Of a stretch of 17,456 nt of DNA, positions 10,617-17,456 are shown piece by piece (position 1 is the first letter of the stretch; every line of letters starts with the position of its first letter). Position numbers and translations under genes: made by a program. The DNA is taken from positions 1 through 17,456 of the forward strand of contig BNUY01000053.1 of NCBI GenBank assembly GCA_025997715.1, given 5' to 3'. The notes below the pieces were generated by a model. That model made no database searches, was not told the origin of the DNA, and saw nothing but the letters and a program-made list of their open reading frames with translations. This DNA is from Spirochaetia bacterium. GTDB lineage: Bacteria > Spirochaetota > Spirochaetia > Treponematales > Breznakiellaceae.

Positions 10617-13600
10617 ATGCGGATCATCGCAGACCTTCACCTCCATTCCCCCTATTCCAGGGCTACCAGCAGGCGGAATTCCCCGGCTCACCTGGAGCGG
10701 TGGGCTCAGATCAAGGGTATTAACCTGGCGGGAACCGGGGACTGTACCCACCCGCAGTGGCTTGCGGATCTGACGGAAGCCCTTACTCCGGCGGAAGAAG
10801 GGTTCTATATCCTGAAAGAGGATACACGCCGGGATTTTGACCGGTTTTCTGCCCTGGAAGAAGGACTTCCCCACCCGGCGGAGGCGGCGCCGGTACGGTT
10901 TGTGTTGACCGGAGAAATCAGCACGATTTACAGCCGGGATGGGAAAACCCGGAAGGTCCACCATGTAATCCTGCTCCCCTGCCTGGAGGCCGCCGCTGCC
11001 TTTCAAGCCCGGCTGGAAAAGGTCGGTGGTAATATCCGTTCCGATGGACGGCCCATTCTGGGTTTGGATTCTCGGGACCTTCTGGAAATGCTCCTGGAAT
11101 CGGACTCCCAATCAATGCTTATCCCCGCCCATATCTGGACCCCCTGGTTTTCCGCTCTGGGCGCCCGCTCGGGCTTCGACTCCATCGACGAATGTTACCG
11201 GGACCTTTCGCCCCATATTCACGCCATAGAAACGGGCCTTTCCTCCAATCCTCCCATGAACTGGGCCGTCAAGTCCCTGGACCGCTTCGCCATTATCTCA
11301 AACTCCGATGCACACTCCCCGAACAAGCTCGGACGGGAAGCCACGGTCTTGGAAATGGAATACGCTTACCCGGCTTTGGCTGCAGCCCTGGCTAAGGTAA
11401 AGCAGAAACCGGCTAAGTTCGGTCCGGCTATTCTTGAAACGCTGGAATTTTTCCCACAAGAGGGGAAATACCACTACGACGGCCACCGGAACTGCGGGGT
11501 CTCTCTTAGCCCGGAAGAAAACGCCGCCAATGGACCACGGGTCCAATGCTGCCCGGTCTGCGGCAGTCCCCTGACGCCGGGGGTGCTGGGCCGGGTCCGG
11601 GAACTGGCCGGCCAACTGGTAAGCGAAGACGCCCCTTGCCCTCCCGATTTTGAAGGAACCAACCGCCGCCCCTACCGCTCCCTCATACCCCTGGAGGAAA
11701 TGCTTGGGGAAATCCTCGGTGTGGGGACCGCCTCAAAAAAGGTGAAAGAAGCCTATGGGATGCTCATTGAAAAAGCGGGCAGCGAATTTGCCATCCTGAT
11801 GGACCGGAGTATCGGGGATATCGAAAGGCTGAACTGCCCCGGCATACGCGGAGAGCTGTTGTCCGCCGCAGTAGACCGGATGCGGAAAGGGGAGGTTTCA
11901 ATCACCGCAGGCTATGACGGCGTATACGGGATCATCCGCGCCTTTCCACCGGGGATGGTTCCGGGAGACCGGGGACAGGGCACAGAAGCAGGGCTTTTTG
12001 AGGAGGATCCCTATATCCCCGGCAGTCGTAAGGGTATAAATGCAGAGTGCATTGGTACAAATGCAAAGCGCATCGGTACAAACGCAGAGTGTATCGGTAC
12101 AAATGCAGAGTGTATCGGTACAAATGCAGAGTGCATCGGTACAAACGCAGGGTGCATCGGTACAAATGCAGAGTGTATCGGTACAAACGCAAAGCGCATT
12201 GGTACCAATGCAGAGTGTATTGGTATAAATACAGAGTGCATTGGTATAAATGCAAAGCGCATTGGTACCAATGCAGAGTGTATTGGTATAAATGCAAAGC
12301 GCATTGGTATAAATGTAGAGTGTATTGGTATAAATGCAGAGTGTATTGGTACCAATGCAAAGCGCATTGGTATAAATGCAGAGTGTATTGGTACAAACGC
12401 AGAGTACACGGGTATCTCTGCAAGCAGGGGGTTCATCCCGGACCCGGACCAGGAGCGGGCGATAAACCACCCCGGAGGTCCGGCCATGATAATCGCCGGG
12501 CCGGGAACGGGGAAGACCGCAGTCCTGGCGCGGAGTATCGCCCGGCTTATGGATGGGCCGGATAAAACGGGCGTCCGGGTTCTGGCATTGAGCTTTACGG
12601 TGAAGGCCGCAGAGGAACTGCGGGAACGCATAAGCCGGATAATGGGAAGCATAGACGCCGCCGTCCTTACCGTGGGGACCTTCCATTCCCTGGGACGATC
12701 CATCCTCAAAGTTGAGGCGGCGCAGGCGGGGCTCCGTGATGATTTTACCATTCTGGATGAGGAAGCCCGGGCGGAACTACTCAAGTCCATTACTGCGGGG
12801 AAAAAGCCGCGGGTTTCCGCCGGGCGGCTGGGTTCATATATAGAAGAACGGAAGCGGTTTCTCCTCCTGCCGGGCGATACAACGCTCCGGCTTGGGCCGG
12901 CGGCGGAAAAAACCCTGGGGGCGGCGGCTTCGGATGCCGGGATTCAACCTCCGGACCCAGCCCTGGACCGGCTCTACGGGGAATACCGTGAGGCTCTCTT
13001 AGCCGGGAACACCCTGGACTTCGACGATCTCCTGGCCGGTACGGCTCGCCTCCTGGCCGCCAAACCTGAACTGCCCGCCAAATACCGGGAGCGGTTTACC
13101 CACATTTTTGCCGACGAGTATCAGGATATCAACTTTGCCCAATACGTCCTGTTGATGCTCCTGGCAGGGGAGGAAATCCGCGTTATCGGGGACCCGAACC
13201 AGGCCATTTACGGCTTCCGGGGCGCATCCAATCGGTACATGGATCGCTTCCTGGCGGATTACCCCGGAACGGCGGTCTACCGCTTGAACAAAAGTTTCCG
13301 CTGCGCCGAGCCGATCATCCGGGCGGCGAACAGCCTTACCGGGACCAACCTGCGGGGAACTCCCGGCGCAGTTGCGTCCGAAACCGTATGCCTGTACCGC
13401 ACCCCCTATCCCACAGACCGCGCCGAGGCAGAGGGCATAACCCGCCGGATCGATGCGCTTATCGGGGGGACCGGGTTTTTCGCCATGGACAGCGGCACAG
13501 CGAACAGTAATACTGCCGGCCTCACCAGCCTGGGCCAATGCGCCATCCTGATCCGGGCCGCCGCCCTGGCGCCGCCCATTGAGGAGGCCCTGAAAAATCA

Positions 13601-13985
13601 CGGCATCCCCTACCGGCTTATGGGGGAAAACCTGGAGGATATCCGGTGGAGTACCGAAGAGGTGGCCCTCATGACCATCCACGCATCCAAGGGCTTGGAA
13701 TTCGACCATGTTTTTGTAAGCGGCCTTGAGGAGGGCATACTCCCCTTTACCCTTTTCGGCGCAGACAAAATGGAGGATATCGCAGAAGAACTGCGGCTCC
13801 TCTACGTGGCCATGACCCGTGCCCGCAACGGCCTCCACCTGTCATGGGCCGCCTCCCGCAGCTTTCGCGGCAGAACCCTTACCCTGGGGCCCAGCCGTTT
13901 TCTTGCGGGGCTGGAAAGCCTTATCCCCGAGTTGAAACAGGGCATCAAACGGGAACGGGATAAGCAGCCGGATCTGTTTTCATAA
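10617..13985 (+). CDS. EndoQ-type PHP nuclease fused to UvrD-family helicase through heptapeptide repeats
   Basis: A 1122-residue fusion. Residues 1 to about 460 look like complete endonuclease Q (EndoQ/YqxK type): PHP motifs DLHLHS (6-11), GTGDCTHP (39-46), GEIST (99-103), PAHIWTPW (170-177), ETGLSSNPPMNW (205-216) and SNSDAHSP (228-235); a zinc ribbon HRNCGVSLSPEE..CCPVCG (290-316); then helices ending in GYDGVYGII. Residues 477-602 are 18 heptapeptides. Residues 603-1122 are a compact superfamily 1A helicase: Walker A GPGTGKT (628-634), ALSFTVKAAEEL, GTFHSLG, DEYQD (833-837), GDPNQAIYGFRG (858-869), NKSFRC (891-896), TIHASKGLEFDHV (1020-1032), LLYVAMTRAR (1061-1070). The C-terminal QPDLFS resembles a sliding-clamp-binding motif. 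EndoQ nicks 5' of deaminated bases, so nicking followed by unwinding in one protein is likely. The ATG at 10617 has only a weak ribosome-binding site. Some repair role is secure; fusion function is inferred. Confidence 0.88.
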   Translation: MRIIADLHLHSPYSRATSRRNSPAHLERWAQIKGINLAGTGDCTHPQWLADLTEALTPAEEGFYILKEDTRRDFDRFSALEEGLPHPAEAAPVRFVLTGEISTIYSRDGKTRKVHHVILLPCLEAAAAFQARLEKVGGNIRSDGRPILGLDSRDLLEMLLESDSQSMLIPAHIWTPWFSALGARSGFDSIDECYRDLSPHIHAIETGLSSNPPMNWAVKSLDRFAIISNSDAHSPNKLGREATVLEMEYAYPALAAALAKVKQKPAKFGPAILETLEFFPQEGKYHYDGHRNCGVSLSPEENAANGPRVQCCPVCGSPLTPGVLGRVRELAGQLVSEDAPCPPDFEGTNRRPYRSLIPLEEMLGEILGVGTASKKVKEAYGMLIEKAGSEFAILMDRSIGDIERLNCPGIRGELLSAAVDRMRKGEVSITAGYDGVYGIIRAFPPGMVPGDRGQGTEAGLFEEDPYIPGSRKGINAECIGTNAKRIGTNAECIGTNAECIGTNAECIGTNAGCIGTNAECIGTNAKRIGTNAECIGINTECIGINAKRIGTNAECIGINAKRIGINVECIGINAECIGTNAKRIGINAECIGTNAEYTGISASRGFIPDPDQERAINHPGGPAMIIAGPGTGKTAVLARSIARLMDGPDKTGVRVLALSFTVKAAEELRERISRIMGSIDAAVLTVGTFHSLGRSILKVEAAQAGLRDDFTILDEEARAELLKSITAGKKPRVSAGRLGSYIEERKRFLLLPGDTTLRLGPAAEKTLGAAASDAGIQPPDPALDRLYGEYREALLAGNTLDFDDLLAGTARLLAAKPELPAKYRERFTHIFADEYQDINFAQYVLLMLLAGEEIRVIGDPNQAIYGFRGASNRYMDRFLADYPGTAVYRLNKSFRCAEPIIRAANSLTGTNLRGTPGAVASETVCLYRTPYPTDRAEAEGITRRIDALIGGTGFFAMDSGTANSNTAGLTSLGQCAILIRAAALAPPIEEALKNHGIPYRLMGENLEDIRWSTEEVALMTIHASKGLEFDHVFVSGLEEGILPFTLFGADKMEDIAEELRLLYVAMTRARNGLHLSWAASRSFRGRTLTLGPSRFLAGLESLIPELKQGIKRERDKQPDLFS
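12033..12422 (+). repeat. In-frame 21-bp tandem repeat (18 heptapeptide units)
   Basis: The unit GAGTGYATYGGTACMAAYGCA encodes ECIGTNA. There are 18 full units (12045-12422) preceded by a partial GINA. Twelve units have EC or GC, five have KR (KRIGTNA or KRIGINA) and the last is EYTGISA. Thr/Ile at position 5 varies. The repeat contributes 12 cysteines. Units differ mainly at synonymous sites, with T/C changes at third positions. Because 21 is a multiple of 3, unit gain or loss keeps the frame. Other frames stay open here only because of the repetition. Confidence 0.95.
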
Positions 13986-14030
13986 ATAATTGAGCCGGTT
14001 CAAAAATGCAAAGCCTACCGTGAAAAGTTT

Positions 14031-14092
14031 GCGACATTTTTTGTTGCCCGATAAAGGAAACCGAAGGTTTCCAGCAACCGCAAAAATGTGCC
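14031..14092. repeat. Imperfect inverted repeat downstream of EndoQ-UvrD
   Basis: The core GGAAACC-GAA-GGTTTCC (14056-14072) is nested in GTTGC...GCAAC (14043-14047/14074-14078) and further in ACATTTTT...AAAAATGT. The resulting long hairpin could protect or end the EndoQ-UvrD transcript, or be a diverged recombination site of the array next to it. Confidence 0.55.
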
Positions 14093-14096
14093 GGAG

Positions 14097-14134
14097 AAAA
14101 AATGCACAAAGGCCGCAGGCCGACTGCGTTTTTT
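14097..14134. terminator. Bidirectional terminator-like hairpin
   Basis: AAAAAATGCA (14097-14106) pairs with TGCGTTTTTT (14125-14134), with an inner GGCC-GCA-GGCC stem. It has T-runs on both strands, so it could end both the rightward EndoQ-UvrD transcript and the leftward cassette transcripts. Confidence 0.6.
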
Positions 14135-14149
14135 CGTAGGCCAAGCCGC

Positions 14150-14194
14150 TACTACGGCGCAGCGTATAGCGTATGTTATGCGCAGTTTTGCCCT
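14150..14194 (-). repeat. attC-like site A
   Basis: The minus strand reads GGGCAAAACTGCGCATAAC then ATACGCTATACGC. It shares the GCATAACATACG core with sites B-D and starts just after the stop of cassette gene 1. Its distal half is diverged (GCGCCGTAGTAG) and runs into GC-rich DNA, as expected for the last site of the array. Confidence 0.5.
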
Positions 14195-14196
14195 CT

Positions 14197-15255
14197 TCAT
14201 GGAATCATATTTTCGATTCTTAGTAAATATTGTAAATTTTTTCTTTCAATGTCATTAAAATCTTTTTCTGAAAATTGTTCATTTATTATATATTTAGTAC
14301 TATCAACATCCATAAATCTATCGAAGTTTTCAAAATAATTTTTGTATAATTGGTTTTTAAAATTATAACCATGAAATGCATAAAAGAAATTTATAAATAA
14401 CCGTATTTGATTTTTAGTATAAAGTCTAATTTCATTGTCATTTTCATATAATAAAATTTTGTTCCAACACCAACCTTCAGCCCAATCTCCAAATTCATTG
14501 CCGTACTCACCATAAATATCAAATGGTTCAACACCTATTGTAATTGTATCTGATAATTTTGGCTCTATATTGTTTAGTACAAATCTATATTCACCATTAC
14601 CAATCCATGTAAAATTGTTTTTAAATAAATTAAGGTTTAATAAAAACCTACCGGTTTCTAATGATCTTCCTAATGCTGGACTGCGGATTAGTATATCATC
14701 ACTATGTTTAATATTTATTGTCATAGTTCCTATAGAGTTTTTCCAATTATAGCCTGTTCCATATATATATCCGGCAGCTTTGAAAAATCCATGCTCGCTA
14801 TATTGTACCCTATACGTTACTCTTGAATAGGTGTGTTCATGTCCTTTAAACAAAATTTCTCTTAAATACCAAATACGTTTTGTTTCATAAGAACGGTCTA
14901 CTTCGACAATTTCTTCTTTAATAGTATAATTATCTATTAAATTTCCATTGATATAATTCGTAAAATTTAAATTTTTCCATTCATTATTAACGTTATCATA
15001 TGTTAAAAGAACTGTTTCTATTGGAAATCCTAACAATACAGTTTCATCATTTCCTTCATTGTAAAAATCAAATGTAACGTCAATTTCATAATATTCTTTA
15101 AATAAGGTAATATTTATTACTTCAGTCTCCATAATTATATTTGTATTTTCATTATCAATTATCCCTACAGAACTTCCATATATTGTTCTGGAATCATTTG
15201 CGAATGTATTAATACCCAGTAAAACAAAAAATTGAAATATAATGATATTCTTCAT
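14197..15255 (-). CDS. Cassette gene 1: secreted DUF4424-like protein with C-terminal YARHG domain
   Basis: A 352-residue protein with a signal peptide (MKNIIIFQFFVLLGINTFA, cleavage likely before NDS). The body is beta-rich, with GSSVGIIDNENTNIIMETEVINI and F-x-F-Y-N-E-G-N-D-E-x-V-x-L-G-F-P near residues 82-98, recalling DUF4424-like proteins. The C-terminal YAFHGYNFKNQLYKNYF (292-308) and DIERKNLQYLLRIE fit a YARHG domain, an extracellular domain known in bacterial secreted proteins, often in treponemes. Very AT-rich, unlike the neighbouring EndoQ-UvrD gene. It has its own promoter whose -10 lies only 8 bases before the ATG. The stop codon is 2 bases from attC-like site A. Cell-envelope location is well supported; function is unknown. 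Confidence 0.8.
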   Translation of the reverse strand: MKNIIIFQFFVLLGINTFANDSRTIYGSSVGIIDNENTNIIMETEVINITLFKEYYEIDVTFDFYNEGNDETVLLGFPIETVLLTYDNVNNEWKNLNFTNYINGNLIDNYTIKEEIVEVDRSYETKRIWYLREILFKGHEHTYSRVTYRVQYSEHGFFKAAGYIYGTGYNWKNSIGTMTINIKHSDDILIRSPALGRSLETGRFLLNLNLFKNNFTWIGNGEYRFVLNNIEPKLSDTITIGVEPFDIYGEYGNEFGDWAEGWCWNKILLYENDNEIRLYTKNQIRLFINFFYAFHGYNFKNQLYKNYFENFDRFMDVDSTKYIINEQFSEKDFNDIERKNLQYLLRIENMIP

Positions 15256-15263
15256 ATTATTCC

Positions 15264-15291
15264 AGTATAGTACTATATTTTATTTTGTCAA
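15264..15291 (-). promoter_or_regulatory. Promoter of cassette gene 1 (near-leaderless)
   Basis: The minus strand has TTGACA (15286-15291), a 16-base spacer and TATACT (15264-15269). The ATG at 15253-15255 begins 8 bases after the -10, so the mRNA would start about 1-3 bases before the start codon. GGAA overlaps this interval, so the usual ribosome-binding site would not be transcribed. Confidence 0.65.
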
Positions 15292-15315
15292 GGCTATTTT
15301 ATATTATTTTCCAAC

Positions 15316-15366
15316 AACGTTAGGGCAAAATTGCGCATAGCGTATGTTATGTGCAGTTTTTGCCGC
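15316..15366 (-). repeat. attC-like site B
   Basis: The minus strand reads GCGGCAAAAACTGCACATA, ACATACGC, TATGCGCAATTTTGCC, CTAACGTT. GGCAAAA pairs with TTTTGCC and TGCACATA with TATGCGCA (one wobble), leaving an 8-base loop. It starts 4 bases after the stop of cassette gene 2. Confidence 0.58.
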
Positions 15367-15370
15367 TTTA

Positions 15371-16273
15371 CTACATTCTTCCAAATATCAATTCTTTTGT
15401 TTTATTGAGATTTTTTAATTCATAATTATTTAAATCAAAAGAATAAGCATGTATAATTTCCTTGTAACTTTTTTCATCTATATTAATTGTATCTACATGC
15501 CAATCTTGTTTATATACAATTACTTTATTCAAATCAAGTATTTCTATTTTCCTAAAATCCCATACCCCTTTAAATATACTTTTACCATTTTGTAAATTAT
15601 ATATTTCCAGTTCTCTTAATACTGGTGCTGTACCAATATCTAAAAATATCGAATTATCATATATTCCTATAAAATTATAATAATCATCTTTTATAGTTGC
15701 AACCCTTACTCCATATATTTCATATTCAGAATACAATAAATTTTGATTATATCTATATACATAATAACCCAATGCCCCATAACCATTTTCTCGATTGGTT
15801 ATTCCCATTGCCACATATTTTTCATATACATAAACATTTCCTACATATCCCCTTCTATAATCTGTATACCCTAAATATTTATTATTCGATGACGGTTCAA
15901 TATTTATCTGATTCTTATTTGTGCTTAAACGTAATAAATTTAAATCGAATATTCTATCCCTTGAAGGATTTCGATAATAAACGTCTAAATAAAACCCATA
16001 TACCCAGCCAATTTTATTATCGCCTGTTTGAACATTAAACCAATACGAATCCATATTTTCTATAATTTGCCTTTCTTCATTTACACCTAATATAGTCACG
16101 GTTTCATTTATATTTAATAAAGTTATTATTTCGCTATTTAAATTTGGATCGGTTCTTAATCTAACATTTGAATCGTTTAATGTTGCCAAATAATTATTTT
16201 CAAGTATTTCTTCCGGGTATATATTAAACGAGATTACTAATAACATTATCATAAAACGTATTGCCTTTTTCAT
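15371..16273 (-). CDS. Cassette gene 2: secreted SH3b-domain protein
   Basis: A 300-residue protein from the ATG at 16271-16273, which has GGAG five bases upstream; a GTG two codons earlier is in frame but less likely. Residues 1 to about 20 are a signal peptide. Residues about 29-98 are a bacterial SH3 (SH3b/SH3_3) domain: NVRLRTDPNLNSEIITLLN and YWFNVQTGDNKIGWVYGFYL. The remaining 200 residues are Tyr/Asn-rich and beta-rich without a motif I can name. SH3b domains commonly bind cell wall or act in extracellular recognition. Single gene between attC-like sites, strongly AT-rich, with its own promoter. The stop TAG is 4 bases from site B. Confidence 0.8.
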   Translation of the reverse strand: MKKAIRFMIMLLVISFNIYPEEILENNYLATLNDSNVRLRTDPNLNSEIITLLNINETVTILGVNEERQIIENMDSYWFNVQTGDNKIGWVYGFYLDVYYRNPSRDRIFDLNLLRLSTNKNQINIEPSSNNKYLGYTDYRRGYVGNVYVYEKYVAMGITNRENGYGALGYYVYRYNQNLLYSEYEIYGVRVATIKDDYYNFIGIYDNSIFLDIGTAPVLRELEIYNLQNGKSIFKGVWDFRKIEILDLNKVIVYKQDWHVDTINIDEKSYKEIIHAYSFDLNNYELKNLNKTKELIFGRM

Positions 16274-16288
16274 AAACACTCCAATTAT

Positions 16289-16317
16289 ATTATTATACCT
16301 TTTTCTTATTTTGTCAA
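16289..16317 (-). promoter_or_regulatory. Promoter of cassette gene 2
   Basis: The minus strand has TTGACA (16312-16317) followed by AAATAAG. A -10 AATAAT (16289-16294) lies at 17-base spacing, and a perfect TATAAT (16292-16297) at only 14. The same TTGACAAAATAA string precedes genes 1 and 3. Confidence 0.6.
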
Positions 16318-16325
16318 TATATTAA

Positions 16326-16377
16326 CCAACAAATTCGGCAAAAATTGTACATAACGTATGTTATGCGAAGTTGGGCC
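16326..16377 (-). repeat. attC-like site C
   Basis: The minus strand reads GGCCCAACTTCGCATAAC, ATACGTTATGTAC, AATTTTTGCCGAATTTGTTGG. It contains GCCCAAC, a perfect match to the attC RYYYAAC core, and the shared GCATAACATACG centre. It starts about 9 bases after the stop of cassette gene 3. Confidence 0.58.
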
Positions 16378-16386
16378 ATTTTTATA

Positions 16387-17009
16387 CTATTTATTTTCGT
16401 ACAATAATTTAAGGTATATATCCAGTCTATTTTTAATGCCTTCAAAATAATCTAATTCTTCGACTGTATTCATTTGTATTTTTTCAACAATTATTCCAAT
16501 ATTATTTATATGAATATATTCCACAATGCCATTATATAATTGAATGGATTCGAATAAATTATTATATTCTTCAGGTAAAATTATGTTTGGACATAACACA
16601 AAACCAGCCCTGGGACCATCTTTTATTGCGTCAGGATGCGTGGGGTCATACATCATCATTGGTTCTCTTTCAGTATCTTGTTTTATCATAATACCTTCTT
16701 TCACATCAATATCCATATATTTCCTTATAAATGGACCACCTTCAGCCGTTCTTGTTGTATATATATTTTGAATATTATCCCTTATAATTTCTATATTAAT
16801 ATATTCGAGTTGAATAATATTTTTTAGTATATCTATATTAATTGACAATTCTATATAATCATTATCTTTTATATAATCTATACACTTATAGGTAAAATAA
16901 TTTTCATAAAATCCAATTTGCCGATTACTGTAAAACTTAACGTAAATATTTCCATTATCTGCAAAACAAAATGAAATTATATTAAAAATATCATTATTAT
17001 TTTTTTCAT
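16387..17009 (-). pseudogene. Cassette gene 3: secreted protein of about 207 residues, frameshifted in its signal peptide
   Basis: The ATG at 17007-17009, with GGAGG at good spacing and a near-perfect promoter, opens MKKIIMIFLI-stop. One base out of frame the reading continues ISFCFADNGNIYVKFYSNR... into the long open frame that ends at 16387. Adding one T to the T5 tract (16984-16988 on the plus strand as A5) restores a perfect signal peptide: MKKIIMIFFNIISFCFA then DNG. The only in-frame start downstream is a TTG at about 16848, without a ribosome-binding site. The body (PHPDAIKDGPRAGF, PNIILPEEYNNLFESI) matches no family I know. Possible causes: real inactivation, phase variation at the homopolymer, or a sequencing error. 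Confidence 0.72.
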
Positions 17010-17031
17010 TTTATATTCCTCCATAAAATAC

Positions 17032-17060
17032 ATTATATTATTTTTTATTTATTTTGTCAA
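17032..17060 (-). promoter_or_regulatory. Promoter of cassette gene 3
   Basis: The minus strand has a perfect TTGACA (17055-17060), a 17-base spacer and a perfect TATAAT (17032-17037), followed by GGAGG (17018-17022). The -35 starts 1 base after the AACGTT end of attC-like site D. Confidence 0.8.
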
Positions 17061-17061
17061 T

Positions 17062-17107
17062 AACGTTGGCCCAATTTCGCAAACCGTATGTTATACGCCG
17101 TTTGCCC
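17062..17107 (-). repeat. attC-like site D
   Basis: The minus strand reads GGGCAAACGGCGTATAAC, ATACGGTTTGCGAAATTGGGCC, AACGTT. It shares the TATAACATACG core and the AACGTT end with site B. It starts 12 bases after the stop of the truncated cassette gene 4. Confidence 0.55.
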
Positions 17108-17119
17108 GTACCCCATACT

Positions 17120-17347
17120 TTAATTTTTTGCCCATATTACTATTATTCTTAAAATTGATAACAATCCAACTATAACTGATGAAGAATAGTATAAAAACGG
17201 ATTCTTGGAAAAGGCTGTCCTTAGGGGGCGTAGAAAACCTATAATTGCCCCTACTATAAAGCCTATAATTGCTACAAACATACCAGTAACCAAGAATGCA
17301 AATGGTGCCCCATTACCGAAAAACGCACCTAATAAAGCATCCTCGCC
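17120..17347 (-). pseudogene. Cassette gene 4: 5'-truncated small membrane protein
   Basis: An open minus-strand frame ends at TAA 17120-17122 and runs back to a TAG at 17348-17350 that lies inside the GC-rich hairpin. It encodes two hydrophobic segments, FAFLVTGMFVAIIGFIVGAI and SSSVIVGLLSILRIIVIW, separated by a basic loop (FLRPLRTAFSK). There is no start codon with a ribosome-binding site, so the 5' end is missing. Its position before attC-like site D, orientation and low GC content match the other cassettes. The family is unknown. Confidence 0.6.
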
Positions 17348-17456
17348 CTAAAGGGCGAGGTATTGAAGATTTCTCTTTGAAATCTTTGCGCACGTGGGGG
17401 AACATATCCCCCACACCCCCAGCTTTACGCCCTAAAGGGCGGGGAATTATACCCTT
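17341..17456. mobile_element. Hairpin-rich element end, possibly IS200/IS605-type
   Basis: Four hairpins follow one another: CCTCGCCC-TAAA-GGGCGAGG (17341-17360), AGATTTC-TCTTT-GAAATCT (17369-17387), GTGGGGGA-ACATA-TCCCCCAC (17394-17414) and CGCCC-TAAA-GGGCG (about 17429-17442). The first and last share CGCCCTAAAGGGCG. The composition is unlike the AT-rich cassette it interrupts. Subterminal hairpins of this kind are typical of IS200/IS605 ends. No transposase is visible because the window ends at 17456. Confidence 0.4.

Follow-up and report, generated by a model that had tools for sequence, protein, structure and literature searches.

A probable chromosomal integron lineage in Breznakiellaceae with long branched attC sites and an IntI-like recombinase without the IntI-specific insert

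We analyzed a 17,456-nt stretch of DNA (the window; contig BNUY01000053.1 of a Spirochaetia bacterium from the family Breznakiellaceae), in which positions 14013-17456 form the distal end of an array of gene cassettes, with four genes on the minus strand and a repeat with a GCATAACATACG-type core after each of them. Most probably, this array belongs to a chromosomal integron lineage of the window's family, run by an IntI-like tyrosine recombinase devoid of the I2 insert, the domain specific for integron integrases (IntI). As such it is a new integron variant whose integrase fails the defining test, the recombination itself being what we infer. The architecture of the array, its linkage to the recombinase in relatives, the conservation of the sites and the sharing of cassettes between genome bins were observed directly in the sequences. 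All the parts tested fit an integron except for the integrase domain and, perhaps, the marks of strand choice. Since the defining domain was tested for and found absent, the array should not be filed as a canonical integron.

The attC sites of the window and of its family

An earlier sequence-only reading of the window had described an integron-like cassette array with four attC-like sites sharing a core. The array was borne out, with four genes and their sites in one orientation and with site 1 folding as an attC. The repeats proved to be real as well: an 18-base pattern with up to 3 mismatches gave 30 matches in the assembly vs. 6 for the reversed control, and a 20-base core with the same tolerance gave 23 vs. 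0, far too many to be due to chance. The 36-nt repeat occurs in four copies (at 14162, 15333, 16347 and 17077) whose R'' boxes (14175-14181, 15346-15352, 16360-16366 and 17090-17096) all face the same way, and it reads R''-ATAC-G in the gene orientation. As was noticed earlier, the repeats lie just past the stop codons of the minus-strand genes; the distance to the matching terminal arm is 4-12 nt by manual count, not 2-12 nt. The AT-rich cassettes do contrast with a GC-rich flank (GC 0.25-0.28 from 14501 onward vs. 0.59 at 13501-14000), where the array adjoins a plus-strand UvrD-type helicase gene with a GC content of 59-62%.

As to the four sites, only site 1 is a full attC, and sites 2-4 are shortened. 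Site 1 reaches left to 14013, about 140 nt beyond the start at 14150 proposed before, and is 88% identical over 175 nt to a site on contig C24 of the same assembly. Its R' position (14013-14019) reads GGTAGGC in the cassette orientation and has lost the crossover triplet GTT, as would suit the terminal site of an array. In sites 2-4, L'', the middle part and L' are missing, ATAC and an R'-like arm coming directly after R'', and no folded attC is seen. The centre of the hairpin, earlier singled out as its most conserved part, is indeed conserved and corresponds to R'' plus the spacer; the variable outer arms turned out to be cassette-specific terminal repeats, which explains why conservation is confined to the centre.

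The complete layout is seen on contig C24, where seven sites stand in a row on one strand and read R'' GCATAAC, spacer, L'' CTATACG, long middle, L' CGTATAG, spacer, R' GTTATGC. The mirror of each core lies about 150 nt further on, and one of the seven sites has GTTTGCG-type L boxes. Other contigs of the assembly (C11, C23, C36, C40, C68, C71, C75, C80, C92, C97, C100, C107 and C111; loci L032 to L044) bear 1-3 sites each, some of them with other crown hairpins.

A covariance model, R1, was built from 41 attC sequences, including site 1 of the window, so its own R1 score is not independent. Eight of the 195 same-family genomes scored, the window's among them, supplied sequences, and at most 14 candidates were scored per genome, so that all R1 counts are lower bounds. 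At E <= 1e-5, R1 was found in at least 154 of the 195 genomes, and in an order-wide sample of 390 genomes 135 of the 137 carriers belonged to the window's family, the two others being G416 (at least 7 matches) and G221 (one weak match). The model matched none of the five family genomes with a canonical IntI and, even at E <= 0.1, nothing in 18 canonical-integron loci (310 kb), thus supporting the earlier suggestion of a divergent attC type. The exact 20-base core occurs in 69 stretches from 12 genomes, ten of Spirochaetia and two of Planctomycetes (named records, the window's genome possibly excluded), and in none of the viral contigs searched; with up to 2 mismatches it was found in 13 of the 195 family genomes, including the complete genome of Breznakiella homolactica (G009) with a run in one orientation.

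The bottom strand of the sites is predicted to fold into an R stem and, beyond a spacer, an L-box stem topped by a branched crown. Minimum-energy folding places a multi-branch loop at the end of the trunk in 193 of the 194 new sites, as against none of the 76 canonical ones. In the same folds, one-sided trunk bulges number at most one in 186 of the 194 new sites and at least two in 73 of the 76 canonical sites; the exception is G141/G025/G146, where five of six sites have two bulges and only one has at most one. An initial idea that the new attC lacks any extrahelical base was dropped, since bulges are predicted in the folds. The R1 consensus contains 23 pairs, 12 of them with double compensatory changes; these fall within the L stem and the middle and third hairpins. 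The first hairpin of the crown appears in single folds and is absent from the consensus. Sites from several genera align over their full length with a mean column identity of 59%. Site 1 and the R1 sites have the boxes and the predicted one-strand folding required of an attC, and in the long arrays they delimit short cassettes of one gene plus one site, arranged head to tail in one orientation.

Outside the phylum, two contigs of Planctomycetes metagenome-assembled genomes (L157:3744-5286 and L123:1908-4491) carry R1-type attC with cassettes (171 and 80 bits), adjoining rpsB-tsf-like genes as judged by eye; cross-phylum transfer at one locus and misbinning are both possible.

A linked recombinase without the IntI-specific insert

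The complete genome of B. homolactica bears a 417-aa tyrosine recombinase gene (3518822-3520072), followed in the same direction by an attI-like sequence and an array of 42 R1 sites on one strand over 38.5 kb (43 rows, two of which are halves of one site). The complete genome G141, which we take to be T. primitia ZAS-2 (and G139, presumably T. azotonutricia ZAS-9), has the recombinase, an attI-like sequence and three attC within 19.5 kb. The attI-like two-arm sequences were recognized by eye in G009, G141 and G025, and none was seen in the window or its assembly. At E <= 1e-40, homologues of the recombinase are present in 70 of the 195 family genomes, including G141 and, in part, the likewise complete G139; the proteins of two loci from array-bearing genomes (L191 and L192) belong to the same recombinase family as that of G009. 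Among 21 hand-picked loci out of the 70, examined with their flanks, 12 have an R1 site near the recombinase, 11 of them on its 3' side (one, L262, weak at 26 bits) and one on its 5' side. The latter, L261 in G175, shows the divergent layout of a typical integron, unlike the 11 other linked loci. By analogy with these relatives, a recombinase of this family may be expected to serve the window's array.

The recombinase clearly differs from the canonical integrase. The distance between the GKGxKDR and HxLRH motifs is 58-60 residues in all 111 new recombinases measured, 100 residues in 149 of 149 IntI and 63-65 in 7 of 7 Xer; the measured set comprises 81 of the 120 new homologues and 30 of the 42 new loci, with some genes entering twice, and a clean motif was missing from the others. 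The new recombinases lack the IntI insert of about 41 residues: in an alignment of 35 distinct new members, 29 IntI and 7 Xer, two blocks of 31 and 10 columns are filled in IntI and less than 20% filled in the new members. Inspection by eye of 12 rows revealed an N-terminal extension common to the new family and most IntI (not L085), and a C-terminal SPxD-like tail. The integron-integrase profile TIGR02249 gave the G196 and G199 recombinases 117 and 111 bits (best stretch) vs. a cut-off of 265, so an integrase of the IntI family with the IntI-specific domain, by which integrons are recognized, is absent here. By that cut-off, canonical IntI occurs in only 5 of 195 same-family genomes. The integrases of T. 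succinifaciens and T. brennaborense, located by the coordinates in PMC3607928, are canonical. The earlier assignment to the integrons known from treponemes therefore had to be abandoned: the linked recombinase has no IntI-specific domain, and the genomes with IntI lack the R1 type. As a side observation, the 87 genomes with a listed TIGR02249 match at E <= 1e-60 do not include G416 (family f3, one contig).

The new recombinase is nonetheless IntI-like. The G009 recombinase scores 117-156 bits against 29 IntI and 69-90 bits against 7 spirochaete/planctomycete Xer-type proteins. Among solved structures its best match is IntI4 (2a3v), where the alignment falls into two stretches separated by 22 vs. 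64 residues; the XerA-type proteins (4a8e, 5hxy) align in one stretch. In the AlphaFold model (mean predicted local distance difference test 79.7, predicted template modelling score 0.46, 40 of 120 homologues used), Foldseek placed IntI4 first and XerA second, with low TM-scores of 0.30-0.56 among the matches listed. A tree computed without the insert columns separated the new clade (98/99) from the IntI clade (100/100); two of 74 distinct rows (other_L049, other_L209) were left out, and the bootstrap had not settled. A second tree (20 of 35 new recombinases, 11 of 29 IntI loci and 30 of 120 IntI homologues, the last being further IntI from a wider search) gave 97 for the new and 99 for the IntI clade. 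Because the Xer branches are long, the insert may equally have been gained by IntI or lost in the new family.

Cassette ends, cassette sharing and the proposed mechanism

We compared the ends of 157 new cassettes from four genomes with those of canonical cassettes (54 of the T. denticola type and 16 of the T. succinifaciens type). A new cassette begins with 18 nt that are for the most part complementary to its own final 18 nt; over positions 13-18 the match is 64-100% with its own end vs. 13-52% with the ends of other cassettes of the same genome. In 156 of the 157, A at position 11 of the 5' end faces C at the 3' end. In the canonical Treponema cassettes the matching stops after position 8. 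With the ends joined, the bottom strand exceeds the top strand in stability in 148 of 157 new vs. 25 of 70 canonical cassettes. Cassettes A-C of the window obey the same rule of matching their own ends, C having an extra base near its start.

A search for promoter-like pairs (at least 10 of 12 consensus positions in the first 130 nt) found them in 57/78, 27/45 and 5/6 cassettes of three genomes; mid-cassette controls from the same genomes gave 5/78, 4/45 and 0/6, and shuffles 12, 9 and 23%. Such pairs are fewer in G009 (5/28), the T. denticola type (6/54) and the T. succinifaciens type (3/16). As the three whole cassettes of the window each have a promoter-like sequence of their own, their expression need not depend on a platform promoter.

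Cassettes are shared between genome bins. Comparison of 262 inter-site segments gave 20 pairs (some overlapping) common to different bins, half of them at an identity of at least 95%. Examples are a match of 591 nt at 99.2%, one of 607 nt at 98.5% and one of about 1,055 nt that three bins share at 95-96%. In all ten pairs inspected the match covers one cassette with the flanking attC (in one case about 45 nt longer), and in five of them it ends 12-19 nt past the R'' start, meaning the same gene with a different crown. The PG and MS bins presumably come from termite guts. As to content, the first cassette of the G009 array (L226:10255-11949) encodes an Old/GajA/AbiLi-like ATPase, a defence-type protein; PADLOC found no match in six of seven G009 cassette proteins, the seventh being Old/GajA-like.

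These features suggest the following mechanism. A cassette circle would expose a bottom-strand hairpin whose R stem reaches 18 bp owing to the match of both cassette ends. At position 11 the bottom strand would form a G.T wobble and the top strand an A.C mismatch; the wobble and the crown may mark the strand to be cut, in place of the extrahelical bases read by I2. The recombinase would then join the cassette at G|TT to the attI adjoining its own gene. Site 1 is the last attC of the window's array, and sites 2-4 may have lost L''-crown-L' by deletion, unless a cassette entered at the L'' position.

We tentatively extend this to the idea of a surviving integron grade predating the IntI-specific domain, in which an I2-less recombinase would work with an 18-bp stem whose G.T wobble, together with the conserved branched crown, sets the strand, and in which a Xer-like double-strand exchange at R''-L'' would swap crowns and make short sites. 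Somewhat more doubtful, and compatible with the integron explanation, is that sites 2-4 are a second working type at which the I2-less integrase exchanges both strands at R''-L'', so that cassettes enter there and crowns swap. The short sites do read R''-ATAC-R', half of the inspected shared pairs stop 12-19 nt past the R'' start with a differing crown, and the I2-attC interaction is reported to hinder the second cleavage (PMC4792948); against this, slipped-strand deletion between short repeats in a long hairpin would also produce short sites, and a stop at 12 nt may simply mark where attC types diverge.

Alternative explanations and relation to known systems

Several observations weigh against an integron lineage run by the insertless recombinase. 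Of the window's four sites, three fall short of a full attC, and neither a canonical IntI nor the insertless recombinase was found in the window's assembly, which is 77% complete. Eleven phage-integrase-family genes are present there; of the ten compared with NCBIfam, two are XerC/XerD-like and none reached the integron-integrase cut-off, so that a canonical IntI in this assembly was rejected, in line with the lack of TIGR02249 matches at E <= 1e-60 in the window's genome and in the five same-genus genomes. No R1 site is near the recombinase at 9 of the 21 loci. For eight of the nine the contig stops within 1.5 kb on one side, but no R1 site occurs over 6-16 kb on the 3' side of L263, L266, L267 and L272, such that any array there could lie only on the other side, and no contig end is close to L256 (G002). 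Recombinase and R1 had been expected to co-occur strongly, and the association found was only moderate (Fisher p 0.017 in 195 genomes; 62 with both, 8 with the recombinase only, 92 with R1 only, 33 with neither). In addition, R1 was built in part from eight of the genomes it scored, the window's among them; trunk bulges are fewer rather than absent, most new sites having one; the orientation of the sites is mixed in L118, L122 and contig C68; the tree roots rest on seven long-branched Xer rows, and long branches were flagged in both trees; and four of the sharing bins are named for one sample (PG1894), where misbinning could inflate the sharing, the three-bin set also including another sample, MS502-68.

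The missing recombinase of the window's assembly, together with R1 in 92 of 195 genomes without the insertless enzyme, would suit a cluster of attC sites lacking an integron integrase (CALIN), a description which the assembly at 77% completeness does fit; cassettes would then have been placed by a canonical IntI from elsewhere, and the insertless recombinase would be an unrelated neighbour. We consider this unlikely, since canonical IntI occurs in just five family genomes, none with R1, and the canonical Treponema arrays examined have another attC type with ends matching over 8 bp only. Still less probable is the movement of the cassettes by XerC/XerD at dif-like sites. In pdif modules the XerC/XerD sites alternate in inverted orientation around each module. 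R''-spacer-L'' and the attI-like sequences do resemble two inverted arms around a 6-bp centre, and two Xer-type proteins are encoded in the window's assembly; however, the sites are direct and not alternating in the long arrays (L118, L122 and C68 excepted), so that no pdif arrangement is seen, the folded sites show compensatory changes, and in relatives a dedicated recombinase stands at the array start. A first impression of plain dif sites, based on the E. coli dif sequence, was rejected.

The sequence-only reading had itself named what would speak for a dispersed repetitive extragenic palindromic (REP) or terminator-like repeat trailing genes, namely the lack of any integrase in the genome and scattered repeats. 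This is half the case, as single copies are present on many contigs, neither kind of integrase was found in the assembly, and the crown hairpins look terminator-like. Such a repeat is nonetheless highly improbable: in the 157 cassettes the ends match each other and not those of other cassettes, the DNA shared in the ten inspected pairs is one cassette plus the flanking attC, long runs keep one orientation, and relatives have the linked recombinase.

Coming back to the integron lineage with an insertless recombinase, among its closest counterparts are the chromosomal integrons of T. denticola, T. succinifaciens and T. brennaborense (PMC3607928). Common to both are one-gene cassettes, attC with R and L boxes, the GTT crossover and a recombinase of about 400 aa whose gene points to attI and is read in the same direction as the cassettes (here at 11 of 12 linked loci), but the Treponema IntI carries the insert. 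The new attC measure 149-181 nt and are longer than those reported there (63-68 nt in T. denticola/T. vincentii, up to 132 nt in T. succinifaciens); the Treponema sites that we folded, of the 63-66 nt types, form single stems that mostly have 2-4 bulges, whereas the new ones are branched, and the cassette ends match over 8 bp there vs. 18 bp here. The Vibrio superintegrons (VchIntIA/IntI4, 2a3v) likewise have long arrays, and their IntI4, the closest solved structure, has the insert. Their Vibrio cholerae repeats (VCR) are also long attC with a branched top, which is reported (PMC2727003) to be variable and deletable with minor effect, while the new sites can be aligned from end to end. The XerA-type recombinases (4a8e, 5hxy) share the lack of the insert and match over the core only. 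CALIN resemble the present arrays in having attC without a recognized intI, and differ from them in that a dedicated recombinase of another clade is linked to the arrays in G009, G141 and G025. A finder that requires the IntI-specific profile would be expected to label such arrays CALIN, judging from PMC9668308. Among the matches listed in the open-access literature there was no insertless integron integrase and no termite-treponeme integron, subscription papers and preprints being outside the search.

According to PMC4792948, IntI is defined by the additional domain reading the extrahelical bases of attC, and the question of how domain and site could originate one ahead of the other is termed a chicken-egg paradox. 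A widespread array type seemingly without this domain makes the question testable: insertless arrays may show how integrons could work before the domain existed, and a pre-I2 grade, if true, would answer which came first, I2 or attC. If the proposed reading holds, some arrays filed as integrase-less may possess an integrase that does not pass the usual profiles. For T. primitia and T. azotonutricium, an absence of integrons is reported (PMC3607928); on the same reading, the family holding these two species (a species match that we assume) would carry this attC type in 154 of 195 genomes.

The features of the window are collected below.

Features of the cassette array at the right end of the window
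Feature	Position	Strand	Basis and remarks
Site 1, full-length attC, 169 nt, array end	14013..14181	-	covariance model R1, 144.7 bits, E 4.3e-34
Cassette A	14175..15341	-	ends form an imperfect inverted repeat, mismatch at position 11
Gene A, 352 aa, YARHG domain	14197..15255	-	Pfam PF13308, 27.5 bits (cut-off 27); signal-peptide-like start by eye
Cassette A promoter -35, sigma-70-like	15286..15291	-	11/12 consensus positions including -10
Site 2, short two-arm, R''-ATAC-R'-like, R' starts GCT	15335..15352	-	R1 only 10.6 bits, E 0.1
Cassette B	15346..16355	-	end matching
Gene B, 302 aa open frame, bacterial SH3 domain	15371..16279	-	Pfam PF08239, 33.9 bits
Cassette B promoter -35	16312..16317	-	11/12 consensus positions
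Site 3, short two-arm, GCATAAC-ATAC-GTTATGT	16349..16366	-	sequence
Cassette C	16360..17085	-	end matching
Gene C, 153 aa open frame	16387..16848	-	frame appears broken near 5' end (by eye); Pfam search without match
Cassette C promoter -35	17055..17060	-	12/12 consensus positions
Site 4, short two-arm, GTTTGCG variant	17079..17096	-	sequence
Gene D, 3' part of membrane-protein-like frame	17120..17341	-	5' side cut by other DNA near contig end (translation)

PADLOC gave no match in three window proteins, and Rfam at gathering scores found two tRNAs only. At the contig end (17340-17456) the hairpin CGCCCTAAAGGGCG is present twice, cutting gene D; these hairpins resemble the end of an IS200/IS605-type insertion sequence. 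Within the UvrD-helicase gene, positions 12033-12405 hold a tandem repeat with a 21-nt unit in 17.8 copies (83% matches, no indels); it keeps the reading frame, each unit giving 7 residues, and lies upstream of the helicase domain. Further to the left, the segment 7362-9324 encodes a HsdM-type methylase and a short HsdS-like specificity protein.

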